DNA from: Halanaerobium saccharolyticum
Lineage (GTDB): Bacteria > Bacillota > Halanaerobiia > Halanaerobiales > Halanaerobiaceae
Length of the DNA: 64,000 bases
Direction of reading: 5' to 3'
Assembly (NCBI RefSeq): GCF_004362045.1
Contig: NZ_SNWX01000014.1
Span: forward strand, 1 to 64,000
The notes below the pieces were generated by a model. That model had not been told where the DNA came from and ran no database searches. It was given only the letters and a program-made list of their open reading frames with translations. Within the stretch, counting starts at the first letter, position 1. Each line of letters opens with the position of its first letter. Positions 7,836 to 37,718 of this stretch are shown piece after piece. The position numbers were made by a program, and so were the translations under genes.

Positions 7836-9176
7836 TTATTCTCCCTTCAAAAAACTCCAGCTATCTTGTGATTTCATCTCATCTGATCTAATCAAAGCAT
7901 ATTCTGTTGCCAGTGAACCAAAGATTTCTGTAAAAATTGAAGTAAACAGGATTACATTTAAAATCAGCATAGAAATATTCGCAACATCACCCTGGATATG
8001 GATAAAATCCTTTTGAATTATAAACGCCAGATCTATTGTAATTCCGATCTGTGGTATTAAACCCAGTCCAATATAATCTTCCACATGTTTAGGGGCTGAT
8101 GACAGTTTTGCTCCCAGATGAGCTCCTCCAACCTTACCAATAATCCTCATAAGTGTGTAGGCAAAAGCGATAATTAAAAAGCTTTTATTAAACAAATTGC
8201 TGATATCTATCTTCGTTCCGGCAAGAATAAAAAATGTGGCCAGTAAAGGTACAGTAAGAATATCTATTTTGTCTGAAACATTCAGTCTTCTTTTAGGTAT
8301 ATTTCTGTAAACAAAACCAACAGTCAGATTAGCAAACAAAGGAGAAATATGTAAAAAAACTGCTGCTGCAGTAGCACCAATTATTGTTGCCAGAATTAAT
8401 AATATTTTTCGGCTTTCTGAATCACATTTGATCATTAAATGCTGCGAAATATAACCTATCACAAATCCCAGCAAAATTGCCGCAGAAACTCTAACTAACG
8501 GTTCAATCAACATATTGGTTATAGTTAATTCCACTTCCGGAGAGGCCAGAATATATGATAAAGGTTCCATAAAAGAGAAAATCAATAAGGCCAGAAATTC
8601 ATCTAAAGCAAGAACCACCATTAAGGTCGCCGAAAATTCGCCCGGGATACCATATTCTTTTAAAACCATTACTGTGGCTGCCGGAGCTGTTGCTGTGGCG
8701 ATGGTTCCAAATAAAATTGCCACAAAAAGTTCTTTCCCCAGTAAAAGCATTATTCCTGAGACTAAAATAAAAGCCCCAATTGATTCAAAAATAACGATCA
8801 GGGTTAATTCGAATTCTAATTGTTTTAGAATTTTGATGTATAAAGATGTTCCTATCCCAAATGAAATAAAAGATACGGCCAGAACAGTAATAAAGTTCAG
8901 GGTATTCAGTAAGTAGCTGTGCCAGGCTAAGAATTCTTTCGGTAAAAAAGAAAAGTTTCTAACTACACTCTGACTGAAGACTGTGCCTAAAAGTATATAT
9001 CCAACTACACTGGGAATTCTAAACTTATCAGTTATTGTCTTAATAATAAAAGCTGCCAAAAAGAGAAGTCCAATTAAATAAATAAGTTTATGGCTTTTAT
9101 GATTAAGCAGCATCCAGTGCTGTAAATTATTTAAACTACCCAGTACATCATAATTATTAATCTTTATCGCCCCCAA
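7836..9176 (-). CDS. CPA2-type cation/proton antiporter (KefB/NapA-like)
   Basis: 446-aa membrane antiporter with about 12-13 helices (Na_H_Exchanger family). RIPSVVGYILLGTVFSQSVV marks the family N-terminal helix, LVVLALDEFLALLIFS carries the central acidic residue, and TFFILAGTKIDISNL is the conserved later loop. No TrkA-N domain follows. The start is doubtful: TTG at 9176 has a poor SD, whereas an ATT at about 9161 sits 7-8 nt behind GGGGG. It is two nt upstream of the GntP gene. Confidence 0.85.
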   Translation of the reverse strand: MGAIKINNYDVLGSLNNLQHWMLLNHKSHKLIYLIGLLFLAAFIIKTITDKFRIPSVVGYILLGTVFSQSVVRNFSFLPKEFLAWHSYLLNTLNFITVLAVSFISFGIGTSLYIKILKQLEFELTLIVIFESIGAFILVSGIMLLLGKELFVAILFGTIATATAPAATVMVLKEYGIPGEFSATLMVVLALDEFLALLIFSFMEPLSYILASPEVELTITNMLIEPLVRVSAAILLGFVIGYISQHLMIKCDSESRKILLILATIIGATAAAVFLHISPLFANLTVGFVYRNIPKRRLNVSDKIDILTVPLLATFFILAGTKIDISNLFNKSFLIIAFAYTLMRIIGKVGGAHLGAKLSSAPKHVEDYIGLGLIPQIGITIDLAFIIQKDFIHIQGDVANISMLILNVILFTSIFTEIFGSLATEYALIRSDEMKSQDSWSFLKGE

Positions 9177-9269
9177 TTCCAGAAAATTTATTTATAAATG
9201 TTAAATTACTGTTTTGATTATAGCATAAAGTTGCCACCTCTGAACACCCCTATTTTGATATTAAAACAG

Positions 9270-26742: not shown

Positions 26743-27288
26743 CTATAAAGAGAAATTTTTCATAGAATTATCCATAACATCCTGATTAATCCCAATATAG
26801 TCTAGAGTAATACTGGGGGCTGAATGGTTAAATAGTTCCTGCAGTAATGCTACATCCTTATGTTGCTTGTAATGGTGATAACCGAAGGTTTTCCTCGTGG
26901 AATGACAACCAATACTTTTTAGACCCACTTTTTCTCCTGCACCGTTTAGAATCCTATAAGCCTGACTCCTAGATAAGGGCTGATTACTACCATTTCTACT
27001 CTGGAATAAATACTCATGATCAGCCATATTACTAGTGTAATTATCTAAGGCATTTCTTAATACTGAGTTAATGAAGAATTTTTTAGATTTATTAGTTTTC
27101 TCCTCTTTAAGAATGATATGAGTCTGATTTCTAACATCCTTTACTTTAAGTTTAAGCATATCACCAATTCTAAGCCCTGTATTAATTCCAACCACGAAGA
27201 GTAAGTAATTCCTGTAATTATCTTTTAGAAGTTCCATTTTGACTTCTTCAATCTTTTCTCGATCACGAATAGGTTCAACTTTATTCAT
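26743..27288 (-). CDS. short single-domain tyrosine recombinase
   Basis: 181 aa, only the catalytic domain of the lambda-integrase family. Arg in NTGLRIGDML, HSTRKT (H-x-x-R), the second His in FNHS and the nucleophile in TLDYIGI are present; an N-terminal SAM-like arm domain is absent. FimB/FimE-type inverting recombinases have this size. The ATG at 27288 follows AAGGAG by 8 nt. It faces two surface-protein genes, so control of surface variation is conceivable, but no clear invertible repeat was found. Confidence 0.82.
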   Translation of the reverse strand: MNKVEPIRDREKIEEVKMELLKDNYRNYLLFVVGINTGLRIGDMLKLKVKDVRNQTHIILKEEKTNKSKKFFINSVLRNALDNYTSNMADHEYLFQSRNGSNQPLSRSQAYRILNGAGEKVGLKSIGCHSTRKTFGYHHYKQHKDVALLQELFNHSAPSITLDYIGINQDVMDNSMKNFSL

Positions 27289-27297
27289 TAATTTCAC

Positions 27298-27552: not shown

Positions 27553-29199
27553 TTACCAACCAATAAGCTCAACATCTTCATCAAAAGCATCCTCCCTGAT
27601 AGTTCTAACACTTTCTGGAATTTCTACTGTAGTTAATTCATTATCTTTAAAAGCGGTAGATTCAATATATTTTACATTACTTCCTAGATCTACAGATCTT
27701 AAGTTATTATAAGCAAAAGCTCCCATACTAATAGAAGTTAAATTCTCTGGGATTTTTATCGATGTTAAATTATTATAAGCAAAAACTAAAAAACCAATCG
27801 AATTTATACTATCTGGTATTTCTACTGATTTTAAATTATTTTTCTGGAATCCAAAATCGCCAATTGAAGTCACGTTATTACTTAAATCAACTGAGGTTAA
27901 ATTATTATCAAAAAAAGCAGCCATACCAATGGAAGTAACGCTATCTGGTATTTGTATTGATGTTAACTCATTTTCACTAAAAGCACCATCACCAATTGAT
28001 ATAACACTATTTCCTAAATCTAATGAGTTCAAATTATTTGCCTTAAAAGCATCCTTGCCAATAGAAGTAACACTATCTGGTATCTCTACTGAGGTTAATT
28101 CATTATATGCAAATGCTTTATTCCCAATAGAGTTTATTTTATTTCCAAGAATTAGTGATGTTAATTTATTTTCAAAATCTAATTTTGTCTTACTTCCCAT
28201 AAAAGCTTCTTCTCCAATTGCTGTAATACTATTAGGGATATTTACTGTTGTAAAATCATTATCTTTAAAAGCAGCTTTACCAATGGTAGTAACATTATTT
28301 GGAATATTTATTGATGTTAAATCATTTCCCATAAAAACTTCATCAGCAATAGAGGTAATACTATTTGGGATTTTTATTGAAGTTAAGTTATTATCTTTAA
28401 AAGCGGCTTTCCCAATAGAAGTAACACTATTTGGAATATTTATTGATGTTAAATCATTCCCACTAAAAGCATTATCTCCTATCGATGTAACGGTGGTTGG
28501 AATATCTACTGATTCCAAAACATTTGATTCTAAAACTTCTCTACTAAAAGCTCCATCGCCAATTGATTTTACCTCAACACCATCAATATGAGTAGGGATA
28601 ATAATATTTTTATCTTCTATATCAAAATTAAAATCTGTAATGATCACTGATTTTTTGTTTTCTATTCTAAACTGTAAATTTTCAGGTGATACTTTAATTT
28701 TTCCATTTTTGTAATTAACTTTTTCTTTAACCTGACCATTTTCATTGTATCGTATAGCTTCTCCATGTTCTTTTCCCATTTTAAAATTAGTTTTTGATTT
28801 AATCTGTCCATTAGGATAATAAGTTATTCTTTCTCCATTTATTTCTCCATCTTTATAATTAAGTTTTGATGTAACCTGACCATTAGAATAGATCCATATA
28901 AGGGATTCTCCGTGTTTCTCCCCATTTTTATAGGATATTTTTTGTTTAAGTTGTCCATTCTCATAATATTTTATTGTTTCTCCATGCTTTTTTCCGTTTT
29001 CAAAATTAATTATTTCTTCAACTTGACCATTAGGATAATATTTTATGGTTTTTCCTGTAAATGGTTCTGTCTCATTGACTATGTAGTAGGTTCCATTTCT
29101 ATTTTGCAACTTCGATTTGCTTACTTTTCTTTGACTGGAGCCAACTACCAAACTTAAACTTAATATTAAAATTAAAGTAATAATAAGTATTTTTTTCAA
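27553..29199 (-). CDS. secreted MORN-like / BspA-type leucine-rich repeat protein
   Basis: 548 aa with a signal peptide (MKKILIITLILILSLSLVVG). Residues 30-165 hold about six MORN_2-type units (YYPNGQVEEIINFENGKKHGE). From about 200 on there are roughly fourteen 23-residue BspA/LRR_5 repeats of the form SIGxxAFxxNxLTSIxIPxSVT. Both repeat types are protein- or surface-binding scaffolds. There is no lipobox or sortase signal, so it may be periplasmic or secreted. The repeats are similar at DNA level too, so copy number could vary by slippage or recombination. Binding partner unknown. Confidence 0.82.
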   Translation of the reverse strand: MKKILIITLILILSLSLVVGSSQRKVSKSKLQNRNGTYYIVNETEPFTGKTIKYYPNGQVEEIINFENGKKHGETIKYYENGQLKQKISYKNGEKHGESLIWIYSNGQVTSKLNYKDGEINGERITYYPNGQIKSKTNFKMGKEHGEAIRYNENGQVKEKVNYKNGKIKVSPENLQFRIENKKSVIITDFNFDIEDKNIIIPTHIDGVEVKSIGDGAFSREVLESNVLESVDIPTTVTSIGDNAFSGNDLTSINIPNSVTSIGKAAFKDNNLTSIKIPNSITSIADEVFMGNDLTSINIPNNVTTIGKAAFKDNDFTTVNIPNSITAIGEEAFMGSKTKLDFENKLTSLILGNKINSIGNKAFAYNELTSVEIPDSVTSIGKDAFKANNLNSLDLGNSVISIGDGAFSENELTSIQIPDSVTSIGMAAFFDNNLTSVDLSNNVTSIGDFGFQKNNLKSVEIPDSINSIGFLVFAYNNLTSIKIPENLTSISMGAFAYNNLRSVDLGSNVKYIESTAFKDNELTTVEIPESVRTIREDAFDEDVELIGW

Positions 29200-30123: not shown

Positions 30124-32163
30124 TCAACTTTTAGATAATTTAAAAACTTGGGTATCAAAAGAATAATTGGTACATTCCCAGACCCATTGTCTACATTTTC
30201 TATCCATATTTAATTTTTTCAAAGGATTTTTTAAGAAAGCAACTTTTAATTTATTACCTTCCTGTTTAATTATTGTAATAACATATTTCCCCCCTTTATC
30301 TTTTGCAGCAGACCATTCATTATTTGTTATTATAAAAGATTGACCAAAATTATCCACTGACTTAACTTCAAAATAAATATCATTTCCATCAGGATCAATA
30401 CCTTCAATATCAAAGCCTAAATTTTGCTTACTAACATCCTTTACATTATAATTTTTATAATTTAATATTTTACAAACTTGTTGTTCAGCACTTCTCCATT
30501 TAGTTATGCTCAAAACTTCCTTTTCTTCTTCGTCATCTTGCTGAATGTTTTTGTTGTCTGTAAATTCAATTTGAGTTTTTTCTCTATCTAAATTGATTTT
30601 CGGAAATTTAATATTCAAATTGTTATATTCCATTATAGAGCTTATAAAACTTTTATATTCTGCATATGAGACTTTTTCTAAAATTAATTCTATAAATTCA
30701 TTATTAACCATTATATTATCTTTATTAATTTCGTTTAAACTATATACATTATCATCTTTACCAATCCATATTTTCATATCTAAAGATAAATCTCTTATTA
30801 AGATTTCTCGAACAACATATTTATTAATCAGCAATGAAATAAATTCAGCATAACCTCTAATTGAAAGATTAAATTTATTGATATTATTTATTATTGAGTT
30901 ATTATTTATTTCTTTAGCCCCAAAATAACTTAATAGATTTTTCAAGTTGTTTAATCCAGCTATGTCTCTATCAACCATCCATAAGTTTAATTCTTTAGCT
31001 ATTTTTTCAAAATCTAAACTATTAATCCATGAGGGTTTTAATATTAGATCTTCCAATTCATTATTAATTATTTTTTTAATGTTTTTTAACAGTTCTGTAC
31101 TAAAAGTCTTCTTTTTATAAGCAATACTTCTAGGATCAATGTATGGTAGCAAAGCGTTAATAATTTCTTTTTCATTAGCAATTTCAAATTCATTTTTTAA
31201 GCATTCAATGAATAACTTTGAGATGATTTTGGAAACGGATCTAATTACATCCTGAGTATTATTATCTAATATCACTTTTCTTCTAGAAGGATCAGTACTA
31301 ACATCACCATTAATTTTAATTCCTAAACCAGTTTTCTCTTCAGTAGGTAAGAAAGCATATACAAGAGATTCCTCATCTTTTAATCTATTAATACCCCCAT
31401 TAACATTTAATGAAAATGAAATAGATTCCTGGGTTTCACTCCCTATAGTTAACCATCTTTTAATTTTATCCCCTTTACTAATAATTGATTTACTAATTTG
31501 AGGTGATATGATTTTTCTTTTAGCTTCTATGATTTCTATATTTTTTTCTGTATTCAATTCTATTTTATTGATATTATTTAAAAATAATAATGAACTACTA
31601 TTAAAATTATCAATTTCTGTTTCTATTTGTTGCTTGTTAATATTTTCAAAAATAAATATAGTTTTATATCCTTTATTTAAAATTTTATTAACCAATTTCA
31701 TTACATTAGCATCTAGATTATTCATAGGATGAGGAATTCGTATAAGAGGAACATTAATATCTGCTGACATTTCGTTTTTAGTAAGTTTTTTTGAAAATGT
31801 AGTTTTAATATCCCCACTAAGTAAATGTAATTTTCCCGAAAAGCCTACTACAGATTTAAAACCAATACCTCTATAGCCTATTTTTTCTCCTCGTTTTTTA
31901 AATGATCTTGTGCTTCTGCATAAACTTTCAAAATCCTTTTTATTAAAATATCTGCCATCATTAGCTATTAAAATATAATTCTCTGCTATATCAATTATAA
32001 ATTTTGTTGAATCAGCATCATCAGCATTTTGTAATAATTCTGCAAAAGAACGATTGTGATAACTTTCTGCAATATAGTGTTCTAAACCAGCTAAATCTGA
32101 GAGTAAATTTGGTGACATTTTTGCTTCCTTTAATAGAGAAGAACGAACTTCTTCTAATATCAT
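30124..32163 (-). CDS. NO VEIN-type GHKL ATPase with C-terminal DUF3883 domain
   Basis: 679 aa. The N-terminus is a Hsp90/sacsin-like GHKL ATPase: N-box FAELLQNADDADS (about 40-52), G1 IANDGRYF and G2 KIGYRGIGFKSV. A long helical middle follows. About residues 555-660 form a DUF3883/NOV domain with EVKSV and QSFIITNNEWSAAKD, related to PD-(D/E)XK nuclease folds. SD AAAGGAGC, ATG 32163. Third gene of a tight operon with a HIRAN protein and a small paralogue of its N-terminal domain. Proteins of this architecture occur in phage-defence islands; this set is not one I recognise. Confidence 0.82.
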   Translation of the reverse strand: MILEEVRSSLLKEAKMSPNLLSDLAGLEHYIAESYHNRSFAELLQNADDADSTKFIIDIAENYILIANDGRYFNKKDFESLCRSTRSFKKRGEKIGYRGIGFKSVVGFSGKLHLLSGDIKTTFSKKLTKNEMSADINVPLIRIPHPMNNLDANVMKLVNKILNKGYKTIFIFENINKQQIETEIDNFNSSSLLFLNNINKIELNTEKNIEIIEAKRKIISPQISKSIISKGDKIKRWLTIGSETQESISFSLNVNGGINRLKDEESLVYAFLPTEEKTGLGIKINGDVSTDPSRRKVILDNNTQDVIRSVSKIISKLFIECLKNEFEIANEKEIINALLPYIDPRSIAYKKKTFSTELLKNIKKIINNELEDLILKPSWINSLDFEKIAKELNLWMVDRDIAGLNNLKNLLSYFGAKEINNNSIINNINKFNLSIRGYAEFISLLINKYVVREILIRDLSLDMKIWIGKDDNVYSLNEINKDNIMVNNEFIELILEKVSYAEYKSFISSIMEYNNLNIKFPKINLDREKTQIEFTDNKNIQQDDEEEKEVLSITKWRSAEQQVCKILNYKNYNVKDVSKQNLGFDIEGIDPDGNDIYFEVKSVDNFGQSFIITNNEWSAAKDKGGKYVITIIKQEGNKLKVAFLKNPLKKLNMDRKCRQWVWECTNYSFDTQVFKLSKS

Positions 32164-32178
32164 ATTTAAGCTCCTTTA

Positions 32179-32502
32179 TTATAGATAATTTGGATATATT
32201 CTAATTTTATTTGGTAACTGAGAAAGTTCATATATCGATATTTGTAGAACTTCAAACCCAAAAAATTTATTGTCATAAATAATAAATTCAGACTTTTTGA
32301 TAACTCTATTTTTATCATCATAACAAACAGCTAAAATTTGGATGTCTTGATCAAGTTCATTACCTTCTTTAAGATGAACTTCACCTGTGATAAATATGTT
32401 ATTATTTTCATCACTTTCACAATACAAACCATCTAAATCAATATTAAATTTTTCTTCAAAAACTTCTAATCGCTCAAGTTTATTAGTAATATCTTTAGCC
32501 AT
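32179..32502 (-). CDS. small protein homologous to the N-terminal domain of the HIRAN protein
   Basis: 107 aa, unknown family. It aligns over its full length with the first 110 residues of the next upstream gene product: ITNKLERLEVFEEKFNIDLD against ITNRINRLEKYEKKYDIELN, and NKIRIYPNYL against SIIRIYPEKI. It therefore represents a stand-alone copy of a beta-rich domain. ATG 32502 lies five nt after the upstream stop with AAAGG overlapping it, so translation is coupled. It ends 15 nt before the ATPase start. A scaffold or adaptor role is an inference. Confidence 0.7.
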   Translation of the reverse strand: MAKDITNKLERLEVFEEKFNIDLDGLYCESDENNNIFITGEVHLKEGNELDQDIQILAVCYDDKNRVIKKSEFIIYDNKFFGFEVLQISIYELSQLPNKIRIYPNYL

Positions 32503-32507
32503 TATAA

Positions 32508-33185
32508 TCAACCTTTCTTGTTATATATTTCTATTTTAAAAGTAATATTGTTATCATCTTTAGGCAATTCATAAATTTTAGCTTCAAAGCTTTGTTTTTT
32601 ATCAAATTTTGGAGCTAGTTTAAATGCTAATTCTTTTGGTAAATAACCTAATATATCTCCAATTTTTGAAACTACTTTAATTGCGTTATTGTCATATTCA
32701 TTTTCATAATCTCTTTTAAGAAAAATGGAATCGTTATAGTTTAAGTTCCTTATTTTATTCTCTCTATTATTAAATGTTATCCCTACAACTTTAGTTTTAA
32801 TAATATTATTATTAAATTTAAATTTATTTTTAGGTGCATAAAACTTTTGAGTTGGATAAATCTTTTCAGGATAAATTCTTATAATAGATGGTTTTGATTT
32901 CAATGTCATAAGCACATGGAAAACTTTGATTTTAAAAAAATTTTCCATAGCATAAATTCTTTTGAATTTACCCATTAAATTATTTTCTTGATCATATACT
33001 TTAAAATTAATTTTTATTCTACCATCTAATGTATCTTTTTCTAAAGAATGAATTTCACCATTTAAAATTAATATGTAACTATCTTTCATTTTGTCTTTAA
33101 TGAGCTTAGCAAATAAACTGTTGAGTTCAATATCATATTTTTTTTCATATTTTTCTAAACGATTTATTCGGTTTGTTATATCCAT
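32508..33185 (-). CDS. HIRAN-domain protein with a novel N-terminal domain
   Basis: 225 aa. Residues 1-110 are a beta-rich domain shared with the next gene. Residues 125-225 form a HIRAN domain (KTKVVGITFNNRENKI, LKRDYENEYDNNAIKVV, DILGYLPKELAFKLAPKFD), known to bind 3' DNA ends or stalled forks in HLTF/Rad5 proteins. The start is the ATG at 33185 with GGAGG five nt upstream. First gene of the three-gene operon; it may sense aberrant DNA ends and signal to the GHKL ATPase. Confidence 0.78.
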   Translation of the reverse strand: MDITNRINRLEKYEKKYDIELNSLFAKLIKDKMKDSYILILNGEIHSLEKDTLDGRIKINFKVYDQENNLMGKFKRIYAMENFFKIKVFHVLMTLKSKPSIIRIYPEKIYPTQKFYAPKNKFKFNNNIIKTKVVGITFNNRENKIRNLNYNDSIFLKRDYENEYDNNAIKVVSKIGDILGYLPKELAFKLAPKFDKKQSFEAKIYELPKDDNNITFKIEIYNKKG

Positions 33186-34670: not shown

Positions 34671-34737
34671 AATACATTTCCTCTCCTTTTGGATTAAAAA
34701 TATTTATTAAAGTTTTTATTGTATGTTTCATCTTTTA

Positions 34738-34867
34738 TATAACGTTACAGGGATTTGCACTTGTGCCTGATTCCGCAGGAACTGGCGTAAAGCTTGCTTT
34801 TCTGTATCAGTGATTGGTTAAATTGCAAGCTTTATGACAGAAGGCATGACGCCAATCACATGTTATA
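34738..34867 (-). other. attC-like recombination site between cassette genes
   Basis: On the minus strand it starts GTATAACATGTGATTGGCG and ends GTGCAAATCCCTGTAACGTTATA, about 130 bp. Outer boxes TATAAC/GTTATA and inner boxes GTGATTxGC/GCxAATCCC correspond to those at 33787-33892. A further perfect 9-bp stem AAAGCTTGC/GCAAGCTTT forms the apical part. Confidence 0.5.
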
Positions 34868-34881
34868 CGCAGTAATACCTG

Positions 34882-37245: not shown

Positions 37246-37695
37246 TTAAATTAGATTTCTTTCCTTCATACTGATATAATTATCTTTGCTACCAATAATT
37301 ATGTGATCCACAATATCTATGCCGAGTATTTTACCTGATTTGATGAGTTTCTTAGTTACAGTAACATCAACACTACTTGGTTCAGGTACTGTACTCGGAT
37401 GATTGTGGGCTAGAACAATAGCTGCTGCATTCTGTAAAATAGCCCGCTTAAATACTTCTCGTGGTGAGACAAGGCTAGAGGTTAGATTACCAATAGAAAC
37501 CTCAAATACACCAGTTACCTTGCTTTTGATATCAAGAGTGGCCATAGCAAAGACTTCTTCAGCTCTCTGGTCAAGTTCTAATACCTCAATGAATAGATCT
37601 CTTGCCTGTATAGGGTTACCAACACTCTTGTCTATGTCATATCTTCCACCTGACTCCTTAACGACTCTTAAACTAAACTTCTGAATATTTACCAT
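37246..37695 (-). CDS. radC: RadC-like JAB-domain protein
   Basis: 149 aa, only the C-terminal JAMM/MPN+ domain of RadC proteins: AHNHPSTVPEPSSVD (H-x-H-x10-D zinc motif) and VDHIIIG near the end. It is shorter than chromosomal RadC (about 220 aa) because the helix-hairpin-helix part is missing, as is usual for copies carried by islands and phages. ATG 37695 has AAAGGAG 9 nt upstream. Its biochemical role is unknown; its company (Bet, ArdC-like) fits DNA handling by the element. Confidence 0.9.
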   Translation of the reverse strand: MVNIQKFSLRVVKESGGRYDIDKSVGNPIQARDLFIEVLELDQRAEEVFAMATLDIKSKVTGVFEVSIGNLTSSLVSPREVFKRAILQNAAAIVLAHNHPSTVPEPSSVDVTVTKKLIKSGKILGIDIVDHIIIGSKDNYISMKERNLI

Positions 37696-37718
37696 TAATA
37701 TCATCTCCTTTTAATTTT

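Follow-up and report, generated by a model that had tools for sequence, protein, structure and literature searches.

A conserved gene pair of a sacsin/Hsp90-like ATPase with a nuclease-like domain and an Ig-like partner domain carrying exchangeable modules: a candidate bacterial defence module

What do three tightly packed genes in Halanaerobium saccharolyticum encode, and do they represent a defence system that has no name? The genes lie on the minus strand and form an operon at positions 30124-33185 of the window, the whole 64,000-nt stretch of DNA that was analysed (NZ_SNWX01000014.1). The original prediction had described them as three coupled genes for a HIRAN protein with a new N-terminal domain, a small protein consisting of that domain only, and a 679-aa Hsp90-like ATPase ending in DUF3883. 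All three genes are present, and they are separated by gaps of 2 and then 15 bases. A Shine-Dalgarno-like GGAGG precedes gene 1 and AAAGGAG precedes gene 3. The genes and their parts, in which the new domain is called DOM, are as follows.

32508..33185, minus strand: DOM-HIRAN protein, 225 aa, operon gene 1 (Pfam HIRAN, E 5.6e-14; relative in locus L076)
32865..33185, minus strand: DOM of the HIRAN protein, a new Ig-like, putative adaptor domain (profile match; alignment A3)
32526..32795, minus strand: HIRAN domain, residues 131-220, predicted DNA-end binder (PF08797; HLTF alignment)
32179..32505, minus strand: stand-alone DOM protein, 108 aa (paralogue match; AlphaFold2 pLDDT 97, beta sandwich)
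30124..32163, minus strand: sacsin-type GHKL/Hsp90-like ATPase with a C-terminal NOV_C (DUF3883) nuclease-like domain, 679 aa (Pfam, NCBIfam, AlphaFold2 pLDDT 87)
30919..32118, minus strand: Hsp90/MORC/sacsin-like ATPase and middle region, residues 16-415 (sacsin SR1, Z 15.6; invariant residues)
30214..30498, minus strand: NOV_C/DUF3883 domain with the D585...E599-V-K601 motif, residues 556-650 (Pfam; invariant residues)

The predicted domain composition also held. The 679-aa protein has a sacsin-type N-terminus (PF25794 in Pfam, E 6.7e-8; P_loop_sacsin in NCBIfam, E 3.2e-19) and a NOV_C/DUF3883 match at residues 570-641 (PF13020, E 2.9e-13). The 108-aa protein, in which Pfam found no domain, is a paralogue of the N-terminal half of the HIRAN protein (35% identity, E 1.7e-10), and these two are the only copies of DOM that a profile search found in the host genome. 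The AlphaFold2 model of the 108-aa protein is a confident Ig-like beta sandwich with a short helix. Foldseek returned no solved structure at E<1e-3 for this model, and a search of PDB sequences gave no convincing relative. VIA-align placed the model next to the Ig-like domains of GH2 enzymes with Z up to 9; this likeness was taken as one of common fold only, and the GH2 domains were rejected as relatives of DOM. The shared domain is real and new, as had been proposed: it is covered by no model in Pfam, NCBIfam, or PADLOC, and it recurs beside the same ATPase in many phyla.

The HIRAN domain of the window aligns with the solved HIRAN domain of human HLTF (E 8e-6) and keeps the YD-x-NAIKV stretch. 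HIRAN domains of the HLTF type bind DNA ends according to literature cited in PMC8262856, and DNA ends are the predicted ligand here as well.

The features expected of a GHKL (Hsp90/sacsin) ATPase, namely the N-box, the G1 and G2 motifs, and the fold, were all found in the 679-aa protein. The best structural match of its AlphaFold2 model is sacsin SR1 (residues 16-215; 177 residues at an rmsd of 3.0), followed by MORC, Hsp90, and SMCHD1. The ATP-site residues E42, N46, D48, G70, G99, and G101 are invariant in 42/42 full-length proteins, and so are D585, E599, K601, T613, N615, and E616 in DUF3883. The assignment of DUF3883/NOV_C comes from both the profile match and the D...E-x-K motif. Anantharaman and colleagues described DUF3883 as a novel REase domain (PMC3710099). 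On the basis of the motif and this literature proposal, the C-terminal domain is a probable DNA-cutting domain.

How firmly are these genes tied to each other in other genomes? Of 398 genomes in the host's phylum that were searched with a two-sequence DOM profile, only two matched clearly, the host and G154 (E 6.3e-9); a further weak match in G121 (E 0.003) contains a stop. A separate search for the ATPase at E<=1e-20 led to the same two of the 398 genomes. The G154 ATPase is 35% identical to that of the window over its full length (E 5.6e-112), and its gene adjoins a DOM gene at a distance of 26 bp. Further evidence of linkage comes from 84,980 species genomes that were scanned with the ATPase alignment; the scan yielded 52 loci, and in 50 the ATPase gene is clear. 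Together with the window, G154, and a Planococcus plasmid, these made up 53 ATPase loci. A DOM gene adjoins the ATPase in 36 of the 53, always on the same strand, and it lies upstream in 33 of the 36. The two genes are no more than 50 bp apart in 33/36 loci, with a zero or negative gap in 20/36. In whole-genome searches of 25 DOM-positive genomes, every DOM match (31/31) fell at the ATPase locus. The named DOM hosts span eight phyla (Bacteroidota, Planctomycetota, Verrucomicrobiota, Hydrogenedentota, Deferribacterota, Pseudomonadota, Actinomycetota, and Bacillota). The module was found in none of 13 other genomes of the host family, in 1/345 genomes of a second phylum, this one being the seed itself, and in 2/331 genomes of a class surveyed with the ATPase of L076, namely the seed and one with FAM209, the alternative partner described below. 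The module is rare, widely scattered, real, conserved, and apparently unnamed.

The linkage does not extend to HIRAN, which is present in only 2 of the 36 DOM loci, the window and L076. The latter is a Clostridium MAG in which the three parts seen in the window recur, arranged as DOM, ATPase, DOM-HIRAN. Its DOM-HIRAN protein matches that of the window over nearly the full length (28% across residues 9-210 in the form that starts at TTG, E 1.7e-13). No HIRAN domain was found in other neighbour proteins of the ATPase loci. HIRAN as a core gene was rejected, as a search of the 398 genomes with the HIRAN protein gave mostly proteins of ~1200 aa and others that match the HIRAN part only. These ~1200-aa proteins, whose HIRAN matches that of the window, occur in many genomes of the phylum (L009-L026 and others). 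The expectation that the genes co-occur elsewhere stood for the ATPase and DOM and failed for HIRAN as a constant member. In other words, the core is the pair of ATPase-nuclease and DOM, not the triad with HIRAN.

Elsewhere, DOM stands alone or is fused to ankyrin, Ig-like, or helical modules. L063 and L078, from Flavobacterium or Bacteroidales, have a module of two genes. Ankyrin repeats are fused to DOM in L081 and L097, and Ig-like domains in L067 and L054 (weak DUF5067/DUF4352 matches). The N-terminal parts of Bacteroidales DOM proteins look similar to these Ig-like ones, and long helix-rich parts were recognized by inspection in L061, L065, and L104. Eight loci have two DOM proteins each. 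In L055, two DOM genes precede the ATPase, and a RES-domain gene (8374-9243) continues into the first of them. HIRAN belongs to the exchangeable accessories outside the core and is one of several proposed sensors. Likewise, the partner itself has an alternative: FAM209, an apparently helical family, takes the place of DOM beside 12 ATPases that lack it (L007, L082, L084, L085, L086, L087, L090, L091, L094, L095, L098, and L099). In a maximum-likelihood tree of the ATPase, the DOM and FAM209 groups are split on one branch with support 100/100. Read most simply, these data suggest that a given ATPase lineage stays with a single dedicated partner and that the sensors borne by DOM are exchanged.

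The genomic surroundings point toward defence. In G154 the locus is flanked on one side by type I HsdM/HsdS genes and on the other by a CBASS cyclase and its 2TM effector. The neighbours of 23 DOM loci (125 pooled genes) were compared with 125 genes taken from control regions in these genomes at PADLOC E<=1e-15; they matched 133 PADLOC families vs 49 for the controls, tallies that count overlapping HMMs rather than systems. Among the best 25 matches listed for DOM neighbours, type IV REase, type I/II MTase, AbiEii, AbiLi, Hhe, and PD-T4-2 lead, and the control-region matches among those listed are mostly PD-T4-6 models. Many neighbours of DOM loci are housekeeping or ordinary metabolism genes. 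Because overlapping models were counted, only the best 25 matches were listed, and many neighbours are metabolic, this enrichment is supportive rather than conclusive. Around the operon of the window, PADLOC recognized no other defence system in the genes scanned.

The original prediction had placed the three genes in an island among HEPN-like proteins and attC-like sites. One attC-like site survives this view, the hairpin repeat at 34737-34870, which belongs to an element with more than 20 copies in the genome, in arrays where it alternates with small genes (copies on contigs C12, C38, C45, C53, C56, C60, and C62; L164-L170). None of the further hairpin candidates in the window is a copy of this element. 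The neighbours described as HEPN-like gave no Pfam match over threshold; the 264-aa protein among them scores 22.9 bits to MauJ, under the cut-off of 28. Some small genes in the arrays look toxin-antitoxin-like by inspection, and the arrays resemble integron cassette arrays. On C38, repeat copies lie near a 368-aa tyrosine recombinase that scores under the integron-integrase cut-off, and no integrase in the genome scores over it. The module as an integron cassette was rejected, for the window has a single attC-like copy, none flanks the module, and no integrase passes the cut-off. A mobile island is suggested by a 184-aa phage-integrase-family protein (26743-27297) and a RadC protein (37246-37704) in the flanks. 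A short way downstream of the operon, the gene at 27553-29199 encodes a protein of 548 aa whose start looks signal-like; by inspection, it has MORN-like repeats in its N-terminal part and leucine-rich BspA-like repeats of 22 aa. As for mobile elements elsewhere, one complete relative, of the FAM209 type, is on a plasmid; phage records gave no complete relative and one weak partial match. Viral contigs gave only distant and mostly long ATPase homologues, among them proteins of 1409-1436 aa in L107 (7893-12203) and L109 (7926-12155), and a search of them with the HIRAN protein gave none.

How might the module work? We lean toward an ATP-gated nuclease, probably antiviral, for which a DOM adaptor bearing interchangeable sensors would act as the switch. 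The Hsp90/sacsin-like ATPase would probably form a dimeric clamp with the restriction-endonuclease-like DUF3883 at its C-terminus. DOM would most likely dock on the ATPase as a regulatory subunit, either alone, as in the 108-aa protein, or bearing a sensor. The sensor in the window would be HIRAN, which may bind exposed DNA ends or single strands, for example those of injected or replicating phage DNA; in other bacteria ankyrin, Ig-like, or helical modules may take this role. Binding of the ligand would drive closure of the clamp by ATP and bring two nuclease domains together, so that nucleic acid, the presumed target, is cut and the phage is blocked or the infected cell is killed. The roles proposed originally, with HIRAN as sensor, DOM as adaptor, and ATPase-DUF3883 as effector, fit the comparative data, except that HIRAN does not belong to the core. 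We infer from neighbours and architecture that anti-phage function is the most likely role. Taken further, the module may represent an undescribed prokaryotic immune class, in which a sacsin/Hsp90-type ATPase-nuclease is licensed by an Ig-like adaptor with exchanged sensors and has a sister clade with a helical partner; this broader proposal is tentative.

Sacsin/Hsp90-like ATPases are present in bacterial defence and among human disease genes. A dedicated adaptor family whose sensors are naturally swapped and which is tied to one ATPase-nuclease would offer a direct handle on the trigger. If HIRAN acts as a sensor, it would connect DNA-end recognition to an Hsp90-like nuclease.

Three other explanations have to be weighed against an adaptor-switched antiviral nuclease. 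One is that the locus is a compact Tiamat system, with a short TmtA as its ATPase and the DOM genes as accessories. The PADLOC TmtA profiles do match the ATPase, up to E 7.7e-51 with the best stretch at residues 4-449, and both proteins start with a sacsin-type GHKL ATPase. However, the match covers only ~14-487 of a 1538-position profile, and the TmtA profiles have 1302-1782 positions, whereas the window protein has 679 aa, ends in NOV_C, and has DOM partner genes. Furthermore, the long relatives that were fetched (L107 and L109) share only 23-25% identity in the ATPase part, and no DOM gene adjoins them. A compact Tiamat is improbable, and assignment to Tiamat as such was ruled out by length and partial profile coverage. 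The ATPase is a remote relative of TmtA in its N-terminal two thirds only; to that extent, it does have a named relative.

A second explanation is DNA repair or genome maintenance, with HIRAN sensing damaged or stalled DNA and the GHKL-nuclease acting like MutL or MORC. The DNA-end binding ascribed to HLTF HIRAN would suit such a role, and so would the fold matches to MORC, SMCHD1, and GyrB. Yet the module is rare and patchy, as its absence from the host family and its single occurrence in the second phylum illustrate, most relatives have no HIRAN, and defence genes are nearby; we consider a repair role unlikely. A stress or chaperone function, in which the Hsp90-like ATPase and its partners remodel proteins and DUF3883 merely binds nucleic acid, draws on the Hsp90/sacsin fold and on partners that resemble protein-binding modules (ankyrin, Ig-like), but it is very unlikely because the REase-like D and E-x-K residues and those flanking them never vary among the full-length proteins.

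Where does the adaptor-switched nuclease stand among known systems? No named system with this exact set was matched in Pfam, NCBIfam, PADLOC, or the literature, as had been anticipated. The set is not described in the open-licence papers searched, a scope that leaves an earlier description possible, and none of them treats DUF3883 and HIRAN together. The main text of the DefensePredictor paper makes no mention of DUF3883, HIRAN, and the like. The nearest systems each share one part. HipIN (PMC8262856) and PDC-M03, which we infer to be the same system, also have a small protein with a C-terminal HIRAN, and PDC-M03B profiles match the HIRAN part of the window protein (E 5.2e-11 in PADLOC), only from residue 125 on. 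In contrast to them, the window locus has no kinase (Pfam gave no kinase match, HipA-like or other, in the ten proteins scanned), and the N-terminus of its HIRAN protein is DOM rather than HipS-like; on these two grounds the assignment was ruled out. A pair of the PDC-M03/HipIN kind is seen in the same genus (L004, 462-2064), where a HipA-like protein, recognized by inspection, stands with a HIRAN protein in which the DOM profile gives no match. The SNF2 helicase-DUF3883 fusions of restriction operons (PMC3710099) share DUF3883 as the predicted nuclease of conflict systems, but the motor in the window is Hsp90-like rather than SNF2, and the operon has no methylase; Pfam and PADLOC found no DNA methyltransferase among the proteins scanned around it. 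Sacsin, MORC, and Hsp90 share the ATPase fold, with sacsin SR1 as the closest solved structure. The window protein differs from them in that it is prokaryotic, carries a nuclease-like fusion, and belongs to a family with a DOM or FAM209 partner gene.
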